This document shows, in pieces, positions 27,110 to 38,813 of a DNA stretch of 64,000 nt. Every line of letters begins with the position of its first letter. Position 1 is the first letter of the stretch. Under the pieces are notes generated by a model, which was not told where the DNA came from, searched no databases, and saw nothing but the letters and a program-made list of their open reading frames with translations. Origin of the DNA: Janthinobacterium sp. B9-8 (GTDB lineage: Bacteria > Pseudomonadota > Gammaproteobacteria > Burkholderiales > Chitinibacteraceae); the NCBI RefSeq assembly GCF_000969645.2, contig NZ_CP014222.1, forward strand, positions 4,095,740 through 4,159,739. Direction: 5' to 3'. Position numbers and translations under genes: made by a program.

Positions 27110-28390
27110 TCATTGTTGAGCGCGGCTTTCCGGGCTAGCTAATGGCAAGCAAATACGAAACAGGCTGCCTTGGTCTGGCGTGCTATTTAATACTATGTGG
27201 CCGCCGTGGTCTGAGATGATTTTCCAAGCCAGAGAAAGCCCAAGGCCCGTTCCGCTGCCTACGGGGCGAGTGGTAAAAAATGGCTCGAAAACTCTTGATT
27301 GTAGTTCTGGTGGTATGCCGCAGCCGTTATCCTCAATATCTATCCAGACCCAGTTTTTGTCGCTGCCTGTGCGCAAGGTGATTAATCCTTGGCCGCTAAT
27401 GGCTTGTGTGGCATTGGTCAGCAGATTAAGAAAAACTTGATTGATCTCTGCTAAATGACATTGCAGCAGAGGGATCTTGCCGTATTCGCGCTGGATAAGG
27501 GTGTCGGGGCTGAGCGTACTTTGAATAATCTGCAGGGTGCTCTCCAGCCCTTTGTGCAGATCAGCCATTTGCTCGCTCGCCTGATCAATTTGAGAAAAAT
27601 ATTTCAGATTTTGCACAATATCCCGTACACGCCGTAGCCCATCGCGGGATTCATTAAGGAGCTGCTGGCTGTCTTCACGCAGATAGGGAATATCCCGTTC
27701 CTGATAGAGCCGCTTGATTGCTGCGAGGGCGCTGGGGGAGAGCATTGTTTCGGCAGCGGTGTAGGCGTCGAGCACGCTTAATATATCGTTGATATATTCG
27801 CCCATGGTTCTTAAATTGGCGCTGACAAAGGCGATGGGATTATTGATTTCGTGGGCGATACCCGCAGCAAGCTGGCCGATAGAGGCCATTTTTTCGCTTT
27901 GTAGTAATTGGCTCTGGGTATCTTCGAGTTTTTTGAGCAGGCGGGCTTGTGCACGGTTGGCGCGTACCAGCTCGCGTTGTTTATCGGCGAGTTCCTGATT
28001 TAAGGTGAGCACGGTTTGGATAAGCTGCTCGTTTTCTTTTATATCGTATTCACTAATCAATTCGATATTGCTGTTACGGCAATAGACCAAGCCTACCTGA
28101 GAATGCCCAAGGCCTTGGCTATCTAAAAAATTAAGAATGCCCCGGTGTAAAACGCCATCCTCACTGTGCGCTATTCGGGCGGTAAGGGTGTTGAAATCGG
28201 GGTTAATCATAAATGGGGTGATATTGTCTGCTCTGGAGGCTGGGTCTTGCTGCAGTAGCTGATAGAAACCATCGTTGGCGTCGATGATCGTGCCCTCGGT
28301 GCTGAGGATGGCATAGCTGACTGAAACCAGCGCTCTAAGCATGGGGGGAATCATGGCACGGGGGTGCGGTGGGGCAGAAGGGATGGACAT
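27110..28390 (-). CDS. PAS-histidine kinase coupled to the cobalamin-binding protein
   Basis: A 426-residue soluble histidine kinase. A PAS-like domain lies at about residues 15-125 and a coiled coil at about 125-175. A HisKA helix carries the phospho-acceptor in GIAHEINNPIAF. The ATPase domain has an N box (NLLTNATQAI), a G1 box (DNGCGIPPE), an F box (FEPFFTT) and a G2 box (GSGTGLGLSLAW). No transmembrane helix is seen, so input must be cytoplasmic. Its ATG overlaps the stop of the cobalamin-binding gene by one base (TGATG), which implies coupled synthesis and probable partnership. The kinase core closely resembles those at 33190 and 34883. Confidence 0.9.
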   Translation of the reverse strand: MSIPSAPPHPRAMIPPMLRALVSVSYAILSTEGTIIDANDGFYQLLQQDPASRADNITPFMINPDFNTLTARIAHSEDGVLHRGILNFLDSQGLGHSQVGLVYCRNSNIELISEYDIKENEQLIQTVLTLNQELADKQRELVRANRAQARLLKKLEDTQSQLLQSEKMASIGQLAAGIAHEINNPIAFVSANLRTMGEYINDILSVLDAYTAAETMLSPSALAAIKRLYQERDIPYLREDSQQLLNESRDGLRRVRDIVQNLKYFSQIDQASEQMADLHKGLESTLQIIQSTLSPDTLIQREYGKIPLLQCHLAEINQVFLNLLTNATQAISGQGLITLRTGSDKNWVWIDIEDNGCGIPPELQSRVFEPFFTTRPVGSGTGLGLSLAWKIISDHGGHIVLNSTPDQGSLFRICLPLASPESRAQQ

Positions 28391-29430
28391 CAGCTGGTTT
28401 CTATTTGAGCAAGATCAGCAGAAGGAGACCAACTATCGGCCTTCAGCGTGCGCCACATTTCGCTAAGGGCGTTGGTGCTGAGCCCTCCTATCATGATCTG
28501 CGGGCGGTGTTCGCCAAATTCTCCGTGAATGGCTGCAATGGTTCGCCTTAAAGTCTCTAAATGCTGGGCTTGAGAAATTGACAAACCCACTAGCTCCGGG
28601 TGCCAAGCTGAAATCTGTGCGAGCAAAGCAGTTATGGGCAGATTTGCCCCTAACTGTTGTACTTCCCACCCTGCTAATTCGAATGAATCAGCCACCATAC
28701 ATATACCGATCGAGTGCAAATTGCCTTCTACGCAGGCAAATAGCGCTCGTTTTCCATTTGGAGGGGAAAAGTCAGCAATGCTGAATGCTTGTGTTAGCTC
28801 ATTTTGCACAATGGCGGTCGCCAGATGTTCTTGGGCTACGCTAATTCGGTTTTGTTGCCAAAGATGGCCAACCTGATACATAGAGGGCTGTAAAAGGTGG
28901 GTCGTAATATCTAAATACTCTGCCCCATCAAGGTAGGCCTGATGCAGCAGCTCATGGGTTTCACGAACATTGCCTGCGACTAGTTTATCAGTCAGTGAAC
29001 TAGTGGCTTGGTGGGGTATAGGCAGGCACTGCATAAATGCGGGTATTTGTGTTGATACTCTTGCTGTAGAAAGTGCACTGCTGGCATCGTTGAAAATTGC
29101 TAAAACAGTGGCGTGATCAATGGGGCAGAGTTTGTGCTCAAAATAGTTGGCCAGCCAGTGCAGCGATTCGCCAAGCGAGTTGCTGGGCACATTGCGTGCA
29201 GCCAGCACACTATCAAGCCAGCAGATGTATTCGCTAAAGGGTTTGCTATTGCCACTACTTAAAGCGCCAGTTAAGAATGAGATATGGAGTGCAATATCGG
29301 CTCGGCAGCTGCGTTTACCCTTGTCGCCAAAACGATGTTGCAGGTCGGGATGGGTGACGTAAATTCTAGCTGTGGCATAGTCTGCGGCCGCATCGCAGTG
29401 CTCGTGGAGGATCTCGCTGAGAATGGCCAT
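28390..29430 (-). CDS. Cobalamin-binding, CarH-type light-sensor domain protein
   Basis: A 346-residue protein. Residues about 140-220 form a helical B12 cap with VGHLWQQNRISVAQEHLAT. Trp, nine residues, then Glu-His is the signature of AdoCbl photoreceptors of the CarH/LitR family. A Rossmann-like cobalamin domain follows with NLHSIG in place of (D/E)xHxxG, keeping the cobalt-ligand His, then LGANLP and IMIGG. The usual MerR DNA-binding domain is absent. It is replaced by about 130 unrecognised, mostly helical residues. The start at 29430 has AAGGA upstream. The gene overlaps the kinase gene, so the output is probably a kinase rather than DNA. Light sensing is inferred from the motif. Confidence 0.82.
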   Translation of the reverse strand: MAILSEILHEHCDAAADYATARIYVTHPDLQHRFGDKGKRSCRADIALHISFLTGALSSGNSKPFSEYICWLDSVLAARNVPSNSLGESLHWLANYFEHKLCPIDHATVLAIFNDASSALSTARVSTQIPAFMQCLPIPHQATSSLTDKLVAGNVRETHELLHQAYLDGAEYLDITTHLLQPSMYQVGHLWQQNRISVAQEHLATAIVQNELTQAFSIADFSPPNGKRALFACVEGNLHSIGICMVADSFELAGWEVQQLGANLPITALLAQISAWHPELVGLSISQAQHLETLRRTIAAIHGEFGEHRPQIMIGGLSTNALSEMWRTLKADSWSPSADLAQIETS

Positions 29431-29455
29431 GATGGTTTTCCTTGTGCAGCAGCTT

Positions 29456-29755
29456 TCAATCACAAAGTAAGTTGAAGTATTCGATGTGCGTTGTGCCGGG
29501 CACCAGTTTCAGGTTTTTGGGAATGTTTTGATGGGATTGCCGATAGTTATGGCTGTGGTGCCAGCTATGAAAGCTTGCTGCGTTTTGCCACCAAGTGATG
29601 AGCATAAATTGCGTGGGATCTGATGCAGGGTTCCATACCTCCATCCGTATAAAACCTTCGCTGCCATCTACCAAATGGGGGCGCTGCAGAAAGGCCTCTG
29701 CAATCGCATCATGGGTATGATTCGCTACTGTAAAGTGGCTTATGGCAATAAACAT
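29456..29755 (-). CDS. Antibiotic-biosynthesis-monooxygenase (ABM) domain protein
   Basis: A 99-residue single-domain protein of the dimeric alpha-beta barrel superfamily: MFIAISHFTVANHTHDAIAE, then EGFIRMEVW, then FMLITWWQNAASFHSWHHS. The family includes quinol and heme monooxygenases, and the substrate cannot be told. A ribosome-binding AAGGA precedes the ATG. It ends 25 bases before the cobalamin-protein start on the same strand, so it is probably the first gene of that operon. A His-rich stretch near its middle (HSWHHSHNY) is notable but unassigned. Confidence 0.75.
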   Translation of the reverse strand: MFIAISHFTVANHTHDAIAEAFLQRPHLVDGSEGFIRMEVWNPASDPTQFMLITWWQNAASFHSWHHSHNYRQSHQNIPKNLKLVPGTTHIEYFNLLCD

Positions 29756-29947: not shown

Positions 29948-29973
29948 AAAATCCCACCGCTGGGTGGGATTTT
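29948..29973 (-). terminator. Intrinsic terminator after sspB
   Basis: An 11-bp stem (AAAATCCCACC, 29948-29958, with GGTGGGATTTT, 29963-29973) lies directly downstream of the sspB stop on the minus strand. Confidence 0.85.
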
Positions 29974-31245: not shown

Positions 31246-31794
31246 TTATTTGTCATTAATCAGCACCGAGCCATCGGGTCCCCAATTAACACGGGTAATG
31301 CCTGGCATGGCGTCTTCTAATCGTTTTAGTTCTGTATCTTTACTTTGTGTTTGGCTGCGGATAAGCCTTAATTCATCGGCTAGCTTTTGATTTTCTACGC
31401 ACACTTTCTGAAAGCGTAATGCACCAGCCACCGTAGAGCGTAGCTCGAAATCATTCCAGGGTTTGCTTAAAAAGCGGTAGATCTCAACCTCATTGATGGC
31501 CAGAACCAAGCCCGCCAAATCGGTCATACCGGATAAAATAATGCGAATACAATCGGGCTGCCTGTAGCGAAAATCGGTGAGAAACGCCACGCCATCCAAA
31601 TCGGGCATGCGGTAATCAGAGATCACCAAATCAAAGACTTTGGTTTCGCTGGCCAGTAGTGCGGCTCTGGCATCGGTAAACGTGTGGATATCGTAAGCGG
31701 CAGAGGTGCCGTCAAACTCATCTTTGGCATTGAGTGTGCGTTTCAGCGAGGACAGGATGTTCGCTTCATCATCAACAAGTAGTATGCGGGCCAT
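31246..31794 (-). CDS. Single-domain response regulator
   Basis: A 182-residue receiver with ILLVDDEANILSSL, phospho-acceptor in LVISDYRMPDLDG, the Thr/Ser position in ILSGMTD and the Lys in SKPWNDFE. A short coiled-coil tail (about 130-165) follows instead of an output domain. The RMP and KPW motifs are those of RpfG-type regulators. Its ATG overlaps the stop of the REC/HD-GYP gene by one base (TAATG). It is the last gene of the minus-strand signalling block and could pass phosphate on or bind the neighbour. Confidence 0.9.
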   Translation of the reverse strand: MARILLVDDEANILSSLKRTLNAKDEFDGTSAAYDIHTFTDARAALLASETKVFDLVISDYRMPDLDGVAFLTDFRYRQPDCIRIILSGMTDLAGLVLAINEVEIYRFLSKPWNDFELRSTVAGALRFQKVCVENQKLADELRLIRSQTQSKDTELKRLEDAMPGITRVNWGPDGSVLINDK

Positions 31795-33122
31795 TATTTC
31801 ACCTGAATATAAATTTCTAAGCTGATGTTGTCGGCGATTTCAAAGGCGCGGATCTGATTAACCAGTCGTTGATCAAGCACATGATCTTTGGCTAGCAGCA
31901 TGACATCCGAAGCGATTAAATCTCGAGATAGCGTCATTTGTGGTTTTAAATCTTTGCTTCTGATCATTTGCTCGCTAATTTGCGGCGTATTTTCCGGTTT
32001 AGCCACGACGGTGCAAAAAGCGTCTACCACCTTGGGGTCATAACGTTTACCGTTACTGCTTTCTATATTTTTAATAGCTTCATTACGCGACATAGGCTTG
32101 CCGGTAAGAAAGCCCGCTTGTAGTGCTTCAAAATCACGGCACAGACTTAAAATTCGTGCGCCAATTGGAATCTCGCCCCCCGCCAGCTTATCGGGGTAGC
32201 CCAGCCCATCGTAGCGTTCATGCTGGCTGCGTATGGTTTGTGAGGCGTTTTGTAATTGCTCTAAGGCCATAAGTGCAGCATGCCCTTTGCTGGGATACGT
32301 GCCATACACATTGCGCTCTTGCAGATTCATTTCTACATAGGGCTTGGCGAGGAGCGCATCAGGTAAGCCTATTTTGCCTATGCAATGCAGCAGGGCCGCA
32401 ATAAAAGCATCCTGAACTTCAGCTTCGGGCAGCTTGAGCTGTCTTGCGACTTGCCGGGTTAGATCTGCAATTACTCTGGCGTGCCCAGCCAGTTTATCGG
32501 CCCGCATTTCCATTAAATTGGCAAACACCTTAATAGAGGTAATAAAGCCTTTTTTTAGTTTATCGTGAGTCATATTTAATTCTTGCATGGTCATTTCTAG
32601 CTCTGCCGTACGAACTTTGACCTGGCTTTCTAGCGAGCTATTAAGCTGCTGTAGCGTTTCATTCTGTCTTTGAACAATCGAGCTGAGCTGGCTTTTTTCT
32701 TTTTCTAAGCGTTTAACCGTCAGCGCATCATCGACGATGCGCAGCATTTCTTCATCATCCCAAGGCTTAGATACATAGCGGTGAATGCGTGCTTTATTAA
32801 TGGCATCAATAGTGGAATGGATATCTGCATAACCGGTCAGTAAAATACGTGCGGTATCAGGCCAGTAATCTAAAGTGATTGCTAAAAATTCGGCGCCTGT
32901 CATTTCTGGCATGCGCATATCAGAAATAATCAAATCAACTTTTTCTTGCCCCAGTATGACCAAGCCTGCTGCACCACTTTCGGCTGTGAGAATAGTGTGG
33001 CCGGTTCTGCGTAACAGGCGGCGTAGTGCAGCAAGAATATTCACCTCGTCGTCTACGCATAGCACGGTGAAGCTTGGTGCTGAAGGCGGCTCCGCTGGCT
33101 CGAGATGAATAAGTTCTGACAC
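31794..33122 (-). CDS. Response regulator with degenerate HD-GYP domain
   Basis: A 442-residue RpfG-like protein: receiver (about 18-135, with DVD-type VDDEVN start, DMRMPEMTG and SKPWDDEE), coiled coil (about 140-190), then an HD-GYP domain. HD-GYP proteins normally break down cyclic di-GMP, but key metal ligands are altered here. The HD pair is His-Cys in ALLHCIGKIG, the HPxxG block reads YPSKG, and the final D..DAL block reads RDFEALQ. The GYP region itself (HERYDGLGYPDKLAGGEIP) is intact. It is therefore probably a binding or signalling module rather than an active phosphodiesterase. Confidence 0.88.
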   Translation of the reverse strand: MSELIHLEPAEPPSAPSFTVLCVDDEVNILAALRRLLRRTGHTILTAESGAAGLVILGQEKVDLIISDMRMPEMTGAEFLAITLDYWPDTARILLTGYADIHSTIDAINKARIHRYVSKPWDDEEMLRIVDDALTVKRLEKEKSQLSSIVQRQNETLQQLNSSLESQVKVRTAELEMTMQELNMTHDKLKKGFITSIKVFANLMEMRADKLAGHARVIADLTRQVARQLKLPEAEVQDAFIAALLHCIGKIGLPDALLAKPYVEMNLQERNVYGTYPSKGHAALMALEQLQNASQTIRSQHERYDGLGYPDKLAGGEIPIGARILSLCRDFEALQAGFLTGKPMSRNEAIKNIESSNGKRYDPKVVDAFCTVVAKPENTPQISEQMIRSKDLKPQMTLSRDLIASDVMLLAKDHVLDQRLVNQIRAFEIADNISLEIYIQVK

Positions 33123-33189
33123 AATTTTTTCCTTTTTTAATTAAGAATTAATTAATAGGTGGTGATTTTATAGAATACTTTTTTATAAA

Positions 33190-34839
33190 TCATTCTTGCT
33201 TAATTGGTAGCCAAATATCGAAAGTGGTCCCTTCGCCTAATATACTGTGAACATCAATATGCCCATGATGTTCTTTCACAATTCCGTAAGAAAGAGATAA
33301 GCCTAAGCCCGTACCCTGACCTATCGGTTTGGTTGTAAAAAAAGGATCAAAAATCCGGTTTACATGTTCAGCAGCAATTCCCTTGCCATTATCACTAAAT
33401 GAAATGCACACTTGTTCATCTTTGCGCCGGGTTCTAATATAAATTTTCCCTTGCTTTTCAATCGCATGGCTGGCATTAACCAGCATGTTTAAGAATATTT
33501 GATTTAATTGAGAAATTACACAGGTTACTAAAGGTAAGTCGCCATACTCTCTTATTACTTCAGCTTTATATTTTATTTCATTTTGCACAATATTTAATGT
33601 GCTGTTTATGCCCGCATGAATATCGGCTTCTTCCCATTTTTGGTTTGAATCGATTCTTGAAAAATCTTTCAGGTTTTGAACGATATTTTTAACTCTTTTT
33701 ATGCCTTCTCTTGATTCATTTATTAATGAATTAATATCTTCTTTTATAAAATCAAAATCAATTTTTTTTCTCTCATTGATCAGAATGGTATGCTCTTCCA
33801 TATGTGGATGAATGGTGGATTCATATTTATCAATTAAGTAAAATATATCACTTAAATAGCCATCTAAGGCCCCAAGATTAGAGCTGACATAACCTATTGG
33901 ATTGTTAATTTCATGTGCAATACCTGCCGCCAGCTGTCCTATTGAGGCTAGTTTTTCTGATTGGAGTAATTGGCTTTGAATATTCCGTAGCTGGTCATTA
34001 AGTGTGATGAGCTCAGCATTTCTTTTTTCTAAGGCAAGGGTGTTTCTATGTGATTCTTCAACACGTATTTTTACTTCATGCTCTAGTGTTTCTTCACGGT
34101 GTTTACTGGCTGTGATATTAGTGCTTATTTCATAATAATTTTTCTCTTGTCCAGCATAAATATCCATAGGAACAAGTAGTGTTTCCAGCCAATAATCATC
34201 GCCATTTTTTGATTTTGCGTGTGTTTCAAATTGAATGGCTTGCAAAGGGCTTAAGTTTCGTATTGATTCAGAGAAGTGCTGGTCAGGGATTAGCCCAATA
34301 TCGAATCGAGTTAATGACATTAACTCTTGTTTGCTATATCCGGAAAGTAAGCAAAGCGGTTCGCTCACATAGACAAACTGGCCGCTTTCTTTTGTGATCG
34401 CAATTAAGGCATTTTTATTAAGCGCATTTCTTTGAATGTCCATTTCGGACATCATGTTTTCCATTTGTTTTAATAGTAGTTTGCTATAAGTAATATCAAT
34501 AGCGAGTGCAGTAATGCCGGTTATTTTTCCATCATTATCATAGTGCGGCAGCCGGTGCAGCTGCATGGTTTTTTCTTGCCCTTCTTTATTTGTAAGGGTA
34601 ATTTCTTCATCGCTTACACCTTTTTCTAAGCTGAATAGATCTCCTTTTTCAATGGTTTTTGCTATTTTTGCTGAGAAAAAATCATGATCATTTTTACCTA
34701 GCCATTCATTACCATCATGCTGGTTAGCAAAACTTTGCCATGCGGCATTGGCCCATACATAGCATAGCTTGGCGTCTTTTTGCCATGCGGGTAAGGGAAG
34801 TTGTGAGCAAATACTGTTAATTAAAATAGGGGTGCTCAT
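33190..34839 (-). CDS. PAS-PAS histidine kinase
   Basis: A 549-residue cytoplasmic kinase. Two PAS domains cover about residues 10-125 and 135-245, a coiled coil lies at about 250-300, the HisKA helix has GIAHEINNPIGYVSSN, and the ATPase domain has NMLVNASHAI, DNGKGIAAEH and GQGTGLGLSLSYG. No transmembrane segment is seen. AAGG precedes the ATG. It lies between the membrane kinase gene and the REC/HD-GYP gene on one strand, with gaps of 43 and 67 bases, so all are probably co-transcribed. Its kinase core is a paralogue of the two other kinases in the window. Confidence 0.9.
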   Translation of the reverse strand: MSTPILINSICSQLPLPAWQKDAKLCYVWANAAWQSFANQHDGNEWLGKNDHDFFSAKIAKTIEKGDLFSLEKGVSDEEITLTNKEGQEKTMQLHRLPHYDNDGKITGITALAIDITYSKLLLKQMENMMSEMDIQRNALNKNALIAITKESGQFVYVSEPLCLLSGYSKQELMSLTRFDIGLIPDQHFSESIRNLSPLQAIQFETHAKSKNGDDYWLETLLVPMDIYAGQEKNYYEISTNITASKHREETLEHEVKIRVEESHRNTLALEKRNAELITLNDQLRNIQSQLLQSEKLASIGQLAAGIAHEINNPIGYVSSNLGALDGYLSDIFYLIDKYESTIHPHMEEHTILINERKKIDFDFIKEDINSLINESREGIKRVKNIVQNLKDFSRIDSNQKWEEADIHAGINSTLNIVQNEIKYKAEVIREYGDLPLVTCVISQLNQIFLNMLVNASHAIEKQGKIYIRTRRKDEQVCISFSDNGKGIAAEHVNRIFDPFFTTKPIGQGTGLGLSLSYGIVKEHHGHIDVHSILGEGTTFDIWLPIKQE

Positions 34840-34882
34840 AGTACGACCTTTATCTTTATAAAAGTTTACTAAACTTCATTCT

Positions 34883-36199
34883 CTATTCATGATCGTTTTT
34901 GTTTAAATCCATTGCATTCAAAGGTATTCTTAGCGTAAAGCAGCTGCCTTTGTTTACTTCACTTTTTACACTGATTTCACCATGCATTTTTTTCATTAGG
35001 CCAAATGCTAATGAAAGGCCAAGCCCGGTTCCTTTTCCAACCGGTTTGGTTGTAAAAAACGGATCAAATATACGGGTCATATTTTCGGGAGGAATTCCGC
35101 TGCCAGTATCACGTACATCTACATAAATATTATTATCGTGCAAGCGTGTACGGACAAGGATTTTTCCGAATGAATCGATGGCTTGTGCGGCATTCGTTAG
35201 TAAATTAAGAATAACTTGGTTAAATTGTGATCCAATAATTTCTACTTTTGGTAATTCTGCATAATCTAATATTATTTTAGCTTTTGATTCTATTTCATTC
35301 TTTGCCATGCTAATGGTGTTGTCGATGGATTTATTGATATCAACTGGCATCCATTCTCCTGAGTCTACATGGGAGAAATCTTTTAAATCACGTACAATTA
35401 CTTTGACCCGCTCTAGTCCGTCTTTAGATTCTTTAACTAATTCAGGAAAATCTTCACAAATAAAAACTAAATCATGTTTTTTGATAATACTCTGTTTGGT
35501 TTCTTTGCTTATTTTTTCATTGTTTTCATATTCGTCGAGCGCGGAAATTAATTTTGTTGTGTAGTCATTAAGTGTATTTAAATTTGAGCTAATAAAGCCA
35601 ATTGGATTGTTGATTTCATGTGCAACCCCTGCGGCAAGTTGCCCTATCGATGCCATTTTTTCTGCTTGGGCGAGTTGAATTTGTGTTGTTTCAAGACGCT
35701 CAATCAGTAAAGCTTGTGCTTCGGTTTTTTTTTCCAGTTGCATTTCTATTTGTTGTCTGGTTTCCATTTCTTCACGTAATTGCTTATTCATTTCTTCCAA
35801 ATGTATAGTTTTGGCTTTTATTTTTAGGTCGAGTTGTTCCATATTGGCAAATAAATAATTGAGTTGATCCGAGAGTTTACTGAATTCATCGTTACCATAT
35901 ACTTTTAAACGCATATTCCAATCGTGATGGTCATTGATCTGGTTTAAGCCTTCATAAATATCTGACATTGCTTGTACAACACTATTGCTGAGTAAAGAGA
36001 TAAGTATCAGAGCACTGATCAGTATGACAATAAAAGTGCCGGTCATTCTGAGTTTGGCGGCATCCAAGCTCAGGCGGCCATCAGAGGCACACAGGGCGAT
36101 ATATCCTAGAATTAAAGCGCCTGTCATACAGTGAAAAAGTAAAATATAAAAGCGGCTTTGTAAGCTAATTCTTTTCCAGTAACTAAATATAGCCATCAT
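34883..36199 (-). CDS. Membrane histidine kinase with HAMP-like linker
   Basis: A 438-residue kinase with two transmembrane helices (about 15-37 and 53-77) separated by only a short loop, so there is almost no periplasmic sensor. A HAMP-like segment, a long coiled coil (about 125-200), HisKA with GVAHEINNPIGFISSN, and an ATPase domain with NLLTNAAQAI, DTGSGIPPEN and GKGTGLGLSLAFG follow. The start MMAIFSYWKR at 36199 has AAGGAG eight bases upstream. A longer frame to 36247 lacks such a site. A few bases separate it from the GGDEF-EAL gene upstream. Confidence 0.88.
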   Translation of the reverse strand: MMAIFSYWKRISLQSRFYILLFHCMTGALILGYIALCASDGRLSLDAAKLRMTGTFIVILISALILISLLSNSVVQAMSDIYEGLNQINDHHDWNMRLKVYGNDEFSKLSDQLNYLFANMEQLDLKIKAKTIHLEEMNKQLREEMETRQQIEMQLEKKTEAQALLIERLETTQIQLAQAEKMASIGQLAAGVAHEINNPIGFISSNLNTLNDYTTKLISALDEYENNEKISKETKQSIIKKHDLVFICEDFPELVKESKDGLERVKVIVRDLKDFSHVDSGEWMPVDINKSIDNTISMAKNEIESKAKIILDYAELPKVEIIGSQFNQVILNLLTNAAQAIDSFGKILVRTRLHDNNIYVDVRDTGSGIPPENMTRIFDPFFTTKPVGKGTGLGLSLAFGLMKKMHGEISVKSEVNKGSCFTLRIPLNAMDLNKNDHE

Positions 36200-36248
36200 C
36201 GAACTCCTTGGCGATGGATATCGGGTTTTGTTTAAATAGAACAGCACG

Positions 36249-38813
36249 CTAATTGTCCGATTTTATTCTGTTGTTATTCATTCTTTGATCATAGTAGGCA
36301 AATGCGTGCCGCACTTCATCTAATAAATCCTCATCTTCCCAAGGCTTGGTCAGAAATTTAAAAATACCCGCACTATTGATGGCATCGGTGAGCGCGCTGA
36401 GCTCGGTATAGCCAGAGAGCATAATTCTGACGGTGTGTGGATAAAGCTCGCGCACACGCCCAAGAAAATCTGAACCATTCATATGGGGCATGCGCTGGTC
36501 AGAAATAATGACCTGAATAGAATTTAGCCCGAGTAATTCGAGTGCCTCGGCGGCCGAAGTTGCGGTAAAAATCAGATAGCCACTGCGACGAAATAATCGT
36601 TTGAGTGCATTCAGAATATCTTGTTCATCATCAACCAGCAGCAGGCTGCGGGGGGCACTCTCAGTGATTGAGTTTTGAAACGGGTGTTGCCGCGTTTGGC
36701 TGATAAATTCATCAAATGCGATTGCAGTGAGTGGCTTAGAAAAATAATATCCTTGGATCTGGTCACAATTCTGGCGGTGTAGGAAGTGCATCTGGCTTTC
36801 TGTTTCTACCCCTTCGGCCACTACATTTAATCGCATACTATGCGCCATGCTGATAATGGCAATGGCAATCATTGCATCATTAGGCTCGGTAATGACGTTT
36901 TGAATAAATGATCTGTCTATTTTAAGGGTGTCAAAAGGGAATTGCTTCAGATAGCTCAGGCTTGAATAACCTGTGCCAAAGTCATCCATTGCCAGCGTTA
37001 CACCTAGCTGTTTGAGCCGCTTTAAGTAGACAATTGCGGCATCCAGATTTTGTACGACAACGGACTCGGTTAGCTCTAGCTCTAAATATTTGCCGTCTAG
37101 TTGGGCATTTTGCAAAGCGGCAGTGATGATTTCTACAATATTGTCTTGCCGGAATTGTAGCGCAGATAAATTAACGGCGATTGAGAGCGGAAGTTTTTCG
37201 TGCCACTTTTTAGCTTGCTTGCACGCTTCATTCAGTACCCATTCTCCAATAGGCAAAATCATGCCTGATTCTTCGGCAAAAGGAATAAATTGAATCGGCT
37301 GTATTTGCCCCATCTCTGGGTGTTGCCAGCGGATTAAGGCTTCTGCTCCGACAAGCGCGCCAGAAAAAAGGTCTATTTTGGGTTGGTAATAGAGTTCAAA
37401 TTCATTCCGTACCAAGGCATTTCTTAAGGCGGATTCCATTTCTAGAATCCGGGTGGCACGCTGATTCATTTCTGGTGCAAAAAAGCGGAAATGATTACGG
37501 CCATTTTCTTTGACTTGGTAAAGAGCAACATCAGCCCGGCGCAATAATGAATCTGCATCCATGCCATCGTCCGGAGAAAAGCTGATACCAATGCTGGGCG
37601 TTACAAATAGCTCGGCCTGCTCGATGGTGTAAGGGGCAGACAGGGTACTTAATACTTTTCTGGCGACTGTGGCTGCATCTTCTTTGGCCACCAGATCGGT
37701 GACGATGGCAAATTCATCACCTCCCATGCGGGCAACGGTATCACCGGCACGCATAAGCGATTCTAGCCGCGTGGCAACCAGTTTCAGCAAGATGTCGCCG
37801 ACAGCATGCCCCAGGCTATCGTTGATATTTTTAAACCGATCCAGATCAATTAATAAAATAGCCGCAATGCTGTCGTAGCGCTGGCTGCGGGTAATGGCGC
37901 ATGCCAGCCGGTCATTAAGTAAGGCGCGGTTTGCCAGCCCTGTGAGCGGGTCATGAGTAGCCAGCTGAGCCAGTTGGGTTTCTCGACGCAGCCTTTCGCT
38001 TACATCATTAAATATGCTGATGTAGTGGCTGGTTTTACCTTGTTCATCCAGCAATGGCGCGATAAAAAGCTCATTGGCAAAGGGGGACCCATCTTTGCGA
38101 AAACACTGCAAAATAGAATGGCCTGTGCCGTGATTACGCAGGATACGGCGTATGACTTCCAACTCTGGCTGGTCGAGTTTATTGCCGAGCAGGAGCCGGC
38201 CATTGTGGCCAATCATTTCTGTAGCACTGTAACCGGTGATTCTTTCAAAGGCGGGGTTTACATATAGAACGGGGTGGGTGTCGATCCGCGAATCGCTAAT
38301 CATGACGGCATTGGCTGAGGATTCTACGGCGCGCTTAAATAGCTCTAATGGTTGCTCTGAATAAGCAAGCGCTGATAGCGGGTCTTGTACTTGAGGGGGC
38401 GATGTAACAGGGTTGTTTTTTAAAGTATGTCCTAGTGGCAGTGATCTTGGTACAGCATGTTGCTTGAGCAGCTGTTCTAGCGTGCTTATCAGCGAGCCGG
38501 GGTCACAGGGCCAGCGTAATGTGGTGGTGTGTGCTTTGTCGCTGCATGATAAGCAAGCGGGTTCTTCCCCATGAAGCAGCAACATGGGGACGCCCAAAGT
38601 CAGTTCGCTGGCGAGCTTGCAGCAAGGGGGAGGTAATGATCGGGGCTGGCTGTGCACGATGACCAAGTCAATATGCTGCGAGCAAAGAGTGAGGGCTTTG
38701 TTGGCGTCTTTAGCTTCAATAACCATATAGCCCGCCGAATTCAATAATTCCGAGCTGAATTGAAGCTGCTCCGGGTCGTCACAGATATTTAAGATGGTCG
38801 CTATATTTGCCAC
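36249..38813 (-). CDS. PAS-GGDEF-EAL-REC hybrid cyclic di-GMP protein
   Basis: An 854-residue cytoplasmic protein. Domains in order: a degenerate receiver (about 1-115, LVIVHSQPR where the Asp should be), PAS/PAC (about 155-270), GGDEF (about 275-440, RMGGDEFAIV intact), EAL (about 455-705, GAEALIRW, ELTES, DDFGTGYSSLSYL, LKIDRSF all intact) and a C-terminal receiver (about 725-845, ISDQRMPHMNG, LTKPWEDE). It could both make and break down cyclic di-GMP under control of phosphorylation at the C-terminal receiver. It opens the signalling block. A palindrome lies 35 bases upstream of the start. Confidence 0.93.
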   Translation of the reverse strand: MANIATILNICDDPEQLQFSSELLNSAGYMVIEAKDANKALTLCSQHIDLVIVHSQPRSLPPPCCKLASELTLGVPMLLLHGEEPACLSCSDKAHTTTLRWPCDPGSLISTLEQLLKQHAVPRSLPLGHTLKNNPVTSPPQVQDPLSALAYSEQPLELFKRAVESSANAVMISDSRIDTHPVLYVNPAFERITGYSATEMIGHNGRLLLGNKLDQPELEVIRRILRNHGTGHSILQCFRKDGSPFANELFIAPLLDEQGKTSHYISIFNDVSERLRRETQLAQLATHDPLTGLANRALLNDRLACAITRSQRYDSIAAILLIDLDRFKNINDSLGHAVGDILLKLVATRLESLMRAGDTVARMGGDEFAIVTDLVAKEDAATVARKVLSTLSAPYTIEQAELFVTPSIGISFSPDDGMDADSLLRRADVALYQVKENGRNHFRFFAPEMNQRATRILEMESALRNALVRNEFELYYQPKIDLFSGALVGAEALIRWQHPEMGQIQPIQFIPFAEESGMILPIGEWVLNEACKQAKKWHEKLPLSIAVNLSALQFRQDNIVEIITAALQNAQLDGKYLELELTESVVVQNLDAAIVYLKRLKQLGVTLAMDDFGTGYSSLSYLKQFPFDTLKIDRSFIQNVITEPNDAMIAIAIISMAHSMRLNVVAEGVETESQMHFLHRQNCDQIQGYYFSKPLTAIAFDEFISQTRQHPFQNSITESAPRSLLLVDDEQDILNALKRLFRRSGYLIFTATSAAEALELLGLNSIQVIISDQRMPHMNGSDFLGRVRELYPHTVRIMLSGYTELSALTDAINSAGIFKFLTKPWEDEDLLDEVRHAFAYYDQRMNNNRIKSDN

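Follow-up and report, generated by a model that had tools for sequence, protein, structure and literature searches.

A predicted photocobilin encoded between an ABM-fold protein and a histidine kinase in an Iodobacter-like bacterium

CarH, LitR and CtMerR share an AdoCbl-binding cap and Rossmann domain that bears a light signature and is associated with a MerR domain. B12-type domains are also found without a DNA-binding part, as in AerR and AppA SCHIC, where they act through a partner protein; AerR has no globin and its partner is a repressor. The signature of light-responsive cobalamin domains consists of the motifs GxxW, EH, GxxH and GxxxP (PMC11796333).

In the photocobilins SasPcob and AbDPcob (8J2W, 8J2X, 8J2Y; PMC10979010), an AdoCbl domain of the same signature is combined with a phycobiliprotein-like globin. 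In these proteins, green light cleaves AdoCbl, as does red light by way of the bilin, and cleavage is followed by movement of the cap helix and opening of the dimer (PMC10979010). Some photocobilins are fused to a diguanylate cyclase, and standalone members were shown to alter the activity of such an enzyme in trans; the function of the standalone proteins was called less clear by the defining authors (PMC10979010). In the accounts given of them in PMC10979010 and PMC10151467, photoglobins (Schneider et al. 2022) are likewise characterized by a globin-B12 pairing, a CXQD motif (PMC10151467) and a predicted link with signal transduction. In parallel, the BBAG-2 globins were described as bilin-binding globins encoded together with a separate B12 protein and often with bilin synthesis genes, namely a canonical haem oxygenase and pre-PcyA, and the passages on BBAG-2 in that paper mention no kinase (PMC10151467).

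The sensor gene presented here (gene 2) encodes, as judged from sequence and structure models, a photocobilin in which the globin comes first. It stands alone like SasPcob and shares with photocobilins the biliverdin-contact Asp of SasPcob and the contact Trp, but its globin is N-terminal and the bilin-attachment position is taken by a Cys, as opposed to the Thr of SasPcob. Since a photocobilin group with a C-terminal B12 domain is mentioned in PMC10979010, this order is not in itself new. Instead of being fused to a diguanylate cyclase, the protein is encoded with an ABM-fold protein and a histidine kinase. An ABM protein thus stands here in contrast to the canonical haem oxygenase and pre-PcyA of BBAG-2, and compared with CarH, LitR and CtMerR there is a globin in place of MerR and a kinase as the presumed output.

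The three-gene locus and its sensor

The window analysed is a stretch of 64,000 nucleotides from Janthinobacterium sp. B9-8 (contig NZ_CP014222.1) and is part of a complete, Iodobacter-like chromosome. The features of the locus are the following.

29948..29973, strand not assigned: hairpin in the gap between sspB and gene 1, likely the terminator of sspAB
29456..29755, minus strand: gene 1, ABM-fold protein of 99 amino acids (Pfam ABM), which adjoins photocobilin genes elsewhere
28390..29430, minus strand: gene 2, predicted photocobilin of 346 amino acids with an N-terminal globin and a C-terminal AdoCbl photosensor domain
29056..29430, minus strand: photoglobin or phycobiliprotein-like domain of gene 2, residues 1-125 (profile matches, VIA-align)
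29296..29307, minus strand: CxxD bilin motif, Cys42-Arg-Ala-Asp45, in which Asp45 corresponds to SasPcob Asp270 and Cys42 to the position of the phycobiliprotein attachment Cys
29017..29055, minus strand: flexible linker that joins the globin to the B12 domain, residues 126-138 (pLDDT <50 at 127-138)
28765..29016, minus strand: four-helix cobalamin cap with GHLW and W-x9-EH, residues 139-222 (Pfam B12-binding_2; invariant G188, W191, E201 and H202)
28393..28764, minus strand: Rossmann cobalamin domain with GNLH and GANLP, residues 223-346 (Pfam B12-binding)
28388..28392, minus strand: TGATG, CTGATGTCC, one base being common to the stop TGA of gene 2 and the ATG of gene 3
27110..28390, minus strand: gene 3, soluble histidine kinase of 426 amino acids

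Gene 2 could start at a GTG (28390-29463) or, more likely, at an ATG with AAGGAAA upstream (28390-29430), which lies 25 bases from the stop of gene 1. The hairpin sets the three genes apart from sspB, so that they probably form an operon of their own. Among Iodobacter species, the proteins of genes 1 and 2 show ~18% divergence, with dN/dS of 0.10-0.17, and gene 3 has 0.22-0.29; values of 0.14-0.22 for genes 2 and 3 place both under purifying selection in this genus.

The C-terminal half of the sensor matched Pfam B12-binding_2 (6e-14) and B12-binding (4e-15), and no MerR or other HTH domain was found in the protein by Pfam. The light signature is complete (GHLW, EH, GNLH, GANLP), with the W-x9-EH of the cap reading WQQNRISVAQEH, and NLHSIG, LGANLP and IMIGG are present as well. 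G188, W191, E201, H202, H239 and G261 are invariant across the true homologues aligned, His239 in GNLH being the predicted lower Co ligand. Such invariance, together with purifying selection, argues that the motifs did not arise by chance. Against solved structures, phmmer ranked CtMerR 8jbs (2e-22) and the photocobilin 8j2w (3e-21) before CarH (3e-9) and AerR (0.0028). In the AF2 model of the protein (pLDDT 87.7), cap and Rossmann domain aligned with SasPcob 8j2w at Z 27.1 over 203 residues (VIA-align), as compared with Z 20-21 for CarH and AerR (AerR 21.0). The NCBIfam CarH model, whose cut-off is 400 bits, gave only 57.

For the N-terminal half, a profile built from 14 homologues matched the globins of AbPcob (8j2y, 4e-8) and SasPcob (8j2w, 1e-6), followed by a long series of allophycocyanins (about 1e-3) and phycocyanins. 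Residues 1-125 of the model aligned with allophycocyanin-B alpha at Z 16.3 and rmsd 1.9 over 123 residues (VIA-align). As the VIA-align list consists mostly of B12 domains, the globin is supported by this one listed phycobiliprotein row together with the profile searches and a Pfam match. The latter comes from a homologue in genome G628, in which the globin is a separate ORF and matches Pfam Phycobilisome above cut-off (1.4e-5). In that genome, photoglobin and B12 domain lie on two overlapping ORFs (L042, 233-1281) cut at the linker within the same order from ABM to kinase, a split that resembles BBAG-2 and reflects either a natural fission or a frameshift in the draft genome. Asp45 and Trp71 of gene 2 align with SasPcob Asp270 and Trp296, both of which contact biliverdin (PMC10979010). 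The SasPcob numbering relies on a six-residue index offset derived from sequence and structure matches, and this offset was checked by the presence of His at the Asp270 position in AbPcob, as published (PMC10979010). The globin fold and the two biliverdin-contact residues lead to the assignment of the sensor as a photocobilin, and by analogy with the studied members its globin probably binds a linear tetrapyrrole.

The first-pass annotation had described an AdoCbl light-sensor domain devoid of a DNA-binding part and genetically coupled to a soluble kinase through a TGATG overlap. The motifs it listed and the lack of MerR are present as described, and the overlap and the coupling were confirmed. 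On the contrary, its designation as CarH-type does not hold, and the 130 N-terminal residues, which it regarded as an unassigned stretch and possible interface, are an identifiable phycobiliprotein-like domain. A stripped CarH was therefore rejected as an identity for gene 2. An AerR or SCHIC protein was also rejected, since AerR is more distant and lacks a globin, while gene 2 has a second domain and a kinase as partner gene.

The ABM protein and the kinase

Gene 1 matched Pfam ABM PF03992 (7.7e-13) and NCBIfam HmuQ (9e-13), in the latter case far below the HmuQ cut-off. Its ABM fold relatives are haem-degrading enzymes. The catalytic triad of the IsdG family is Asn-Trp-His (PMC5557675). Gene 1 shares Trp65 and His75 with IsdG, MhuD and HmuQ but has Ser6 in place of Asn, and it carries a conserved PKxLKL motif at the C-terminus. 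Ser6 is invariant in 9/9 aligned members, and an ordinary HmuQ haem oxygenase was not accepted as an identity for gene 1 since the family-defining Asn is thus replaced in all of them.

A profile of this ABM subfamily was searched against about 770 genomes, 369 from the class and 398 from the phylum. Seven genomes, the window's own included, reached at least 140 bits, and in all seven the gene adjoins a photocobilin gene; the next match, at 71 bits, covered the generic ABM part only. As these seven had fed the profile, their own scores are expected, and what is informative is that no further subfamily member was found among the ~770 genomes. Three members found later (in G789, G808 and G803) likewise adjoin photocobilins, and no member was found in any other setting. 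In addition, the bilin-contact Asp is kept in every photocobilin accompanied by the ABM protein, while photocobilins with His or Glu at this position have no ABM partner. The gene order suggests that gene 1 may supply or load the bilin. A more specific reading, in which gene 1 would be a dedicated photocobilin chromophore enzyme, an Asn-less relative of IsdG and MhuD that makes or finishes a bilin, perhaps not biliverdin, and loads it onto Cys42/Asp45, is put forward tentatively and is somewhat doubtful.

A canonical haem oxygenase was not found in 7/10 ABM-bearing genomes outside Iodobacter, nor in 5/6 genomes listed as ABM-less, one of which (G792) has only a generic corrinoid protein. Haem oxygenase being mostly absent with or without ABM, the correlation between the two is not clear-cut and is suggestive only. 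In Iodobacter, a canonical haem oxygenase (L046, G000:C1 about 512660) lies beside genes for a TonB-dependent receptor and a TonB-like protein; the cluster forms a haem-iron uptake set and is likely a source of biliverdin, and with this enzyme in the genome biliverdin production is to be expected.

Gene 3 comprises a PAS-like N-terminus, a coiled coil, HisKA (3e-7, with His180) and HATPase_c (2e-25). Its H box, N box and G boxes are intact, His180, Asn322, Asp354 and Gly380/382/384 being all invariant. The N-terminus gave weak PAS_8 and PAS_9 matches below cut-offs (E 0.001-0.08; PAS_8 0.004), and the AF2 model of this region, with pLDDT <50, is too weak for a PAS assignment. No receiver domain is present in gene 3 or encoded anywhere in the operon. 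Candidate receivers lie upstream, a REC at 31246 and a REC-HD-GYP at 31794, and nothing ties either to gene 3. Both belong to a cluster of c-di-GMP and two-component genes (31246-38813, minus strand, upstream of sspA/sspB) that encodes REC, REC-HD-GYP, PAS-PAS-HK, HAMP-HK and PAS-GGDEF-EAL-REC proteins and whose order is conserved in loci L001, L027 and L028.

Distribution of the gene set

Full-length relatives of gene 2, at ~27-32% identity, are scattered over Pseudomonadota genomes and occur on plasmids of Azospirillum and Skermanella. ABM, photocobilin and kinase genes were found together in Iodobacter (3 genomes), G074, where the ABM gene is divergent, G219, G789, G808, G803, G515, G628 and G487, where the N-terminus of the kinase, 30% identical to that of G515, lies at a contig end. 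The kinase is directly downstream in 9/10 ABM-bearing lineages, the exception being G289, which has ABM and no kinase; five of the ten belong to one family, hence the lineages are not independent. A kinase gene also follows photocobilins that lack ABM in A. thermophilum and, with a 4-base overlap, in G226. The search for the same gene pair proposed at first pass thus found it well beyond the window, and the sensor does adjoin a kinase repeatedly. The idea of a two-protein B12 system stood as regards the coupling of sensor and kinase genes but not as regards the count, the ABM gene being a conserved third member that makes a three-gene system the better description.

No adjacent kinase was found at the photocobilin loci of G289, G353, G410 and Skermanella. 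The kinase partners are of several types and include a hybrid kinase that carries receivers and Hpt. One family adds to the module a second kinase containing DUF3369 (L036 2809-4620, L065 8478-10226, L066 2783-4513, L067 8521-10223); some of these kinases have a REC-like N-terminus, and they are possibly the next relay step. G410 carries three photocobilin paralogues (L029 6728-7783, L030 10995-12080, L041 6126-7181), all with His replacing the bilin-contact Asp, which AbPcob shows too, and all without ABM or adjacent kinase, features that make them possible B12-only sensors. The photocobilin tree resolved small groups only. Within the Iodobacter set, which includes G028-G035, a photocobilin is present in 4/9 genomes, and this patchiness indicates gain or loss within the genus.

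Proposed light signalling and other explanations

The domain identities, the signature and bilin-contact residues, the geometry of co-translation and the recurrence of the module come directly from the computation. The reading preferred here, with a probability of about 0.7, is that genes 1-3 form one operon for a photocobilin light-signalling module, in which a sensor of AdoCbl and probably bilin would control the co-translated kinase by contact, with gene 1 on the bilin side. Chromophores, photochemistry and dimer change are carried over from the photocobilins already studied. By this analogy, AdoCbl would be held by the C-terminal half of the protein and a linear tetrapyrrole probably by the N-terminal globin. 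The Co-C bond would be cleaved in green light, or in red light taken up by the bilin, which would widen the spectrum of the sensor. With the adenosyl group gone, the cap helix that bears Glu-His would shift and the dimer would break. As the domain order is reversed in SasPcob and AbPcob, the two chromophores of gene 2 may be arranged differently with respect to each other. The variety of the kinase partners, the photocobilin loci that have no adjacent kinase and the replacement of the catalytic Asn in gene 1 also count against the module as proposed. Kinase control and the role of gene 1 are proposed from gene order. The changed sensor may contact the kinase through its PAS-like region or coiled coil and alter autophosphorylation, the phosphate then passing to a response regulator encoded elsewhere, while gene 1 may take part in making, modifying or loading the chromophore. 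The regulation of a diguanylate cyclase in trans (PMC10979010) offers a precedent for signalling by contact.

It could be argued that the globin fold has been kept as a kinase interface and holds no bilin in vivo, leaving a green-light sensor based on B12 only, a view that comes near to that of the first-pass annotation. AbDPcob sets an example, as it functions through AdoCbl in spite of poor biliverdin binding (PMC10979010), and a canonical haem oxygenase was not detected in most ABM-bearing genomes outside Iodobacter. Yet gene 2 keeps Asp45, a position held by His in AbPcob and in the three G410 paralogues, its Cys42 coincides with the site of bilin attachment, and biliverdin is expected to be produced in Iodobacter by its canonical haem oxygenase; this explanation is considered unlikely. 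The operon might also be shared without direct coupling, the photocobilin acting on another target such as a c-di-GMP enzyme of the 31246-38813 cluster. This is quite improbable, because the kinase recurs next door, often with overlapping genes, across widely separated lineages and the cluster, located past sspA/sspB, did not turn up at the loci outside Iodobacter that were searched with these proteins, even if a photocobilin did activate a diguanylate cyclase in trans (PMC10979010) and REC-HD-GYP and PAS-GGDEF-EAL-REC proteins are encoded nearby. Finally, the light signature, with the Trp and Glu-His that keep the adenosyl group in place, is complete and invariant, and the closest solved relatives are photoreceptors. 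It is therefore very improbable that gene 2 encodes a dark AdoCbl or redox/metabolite sensor that informs the kinase of cobalamin or haem status, a reading for which one may invoke the related-fold B12 domains of MetH and MtaC that work without light and the haem-linked fold of the ABM neighbour.

Sensors of the photocobilin kind are already known, and what appears to be new is the conserved kinase partner and the dedicated ABM partner. No description of either link was found in the literature searched; the photoglobin work of Schneider et al. 2022 lay outside this search and the novelty is therefore provisional. The conserved and often overlapping kinase gives standalone photocobilins a concrete candidate target, and two or three small, soluble proteins would suffice to reconstitute a two-pigment two-component system responding to green and red light. 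In the same way, an ABM family found with photocobilins only suggests a missing step in bilin making or loading, in particular where a canonical haem oxygenase was not found. If gene 1 were indeed a chromophore enzyme, the operon would encode a chromophore maker, a two-pigment sensor and a kinase, and would thus provide non-photosynthetic bacteria with a self-contained two-component system for green plus red light.
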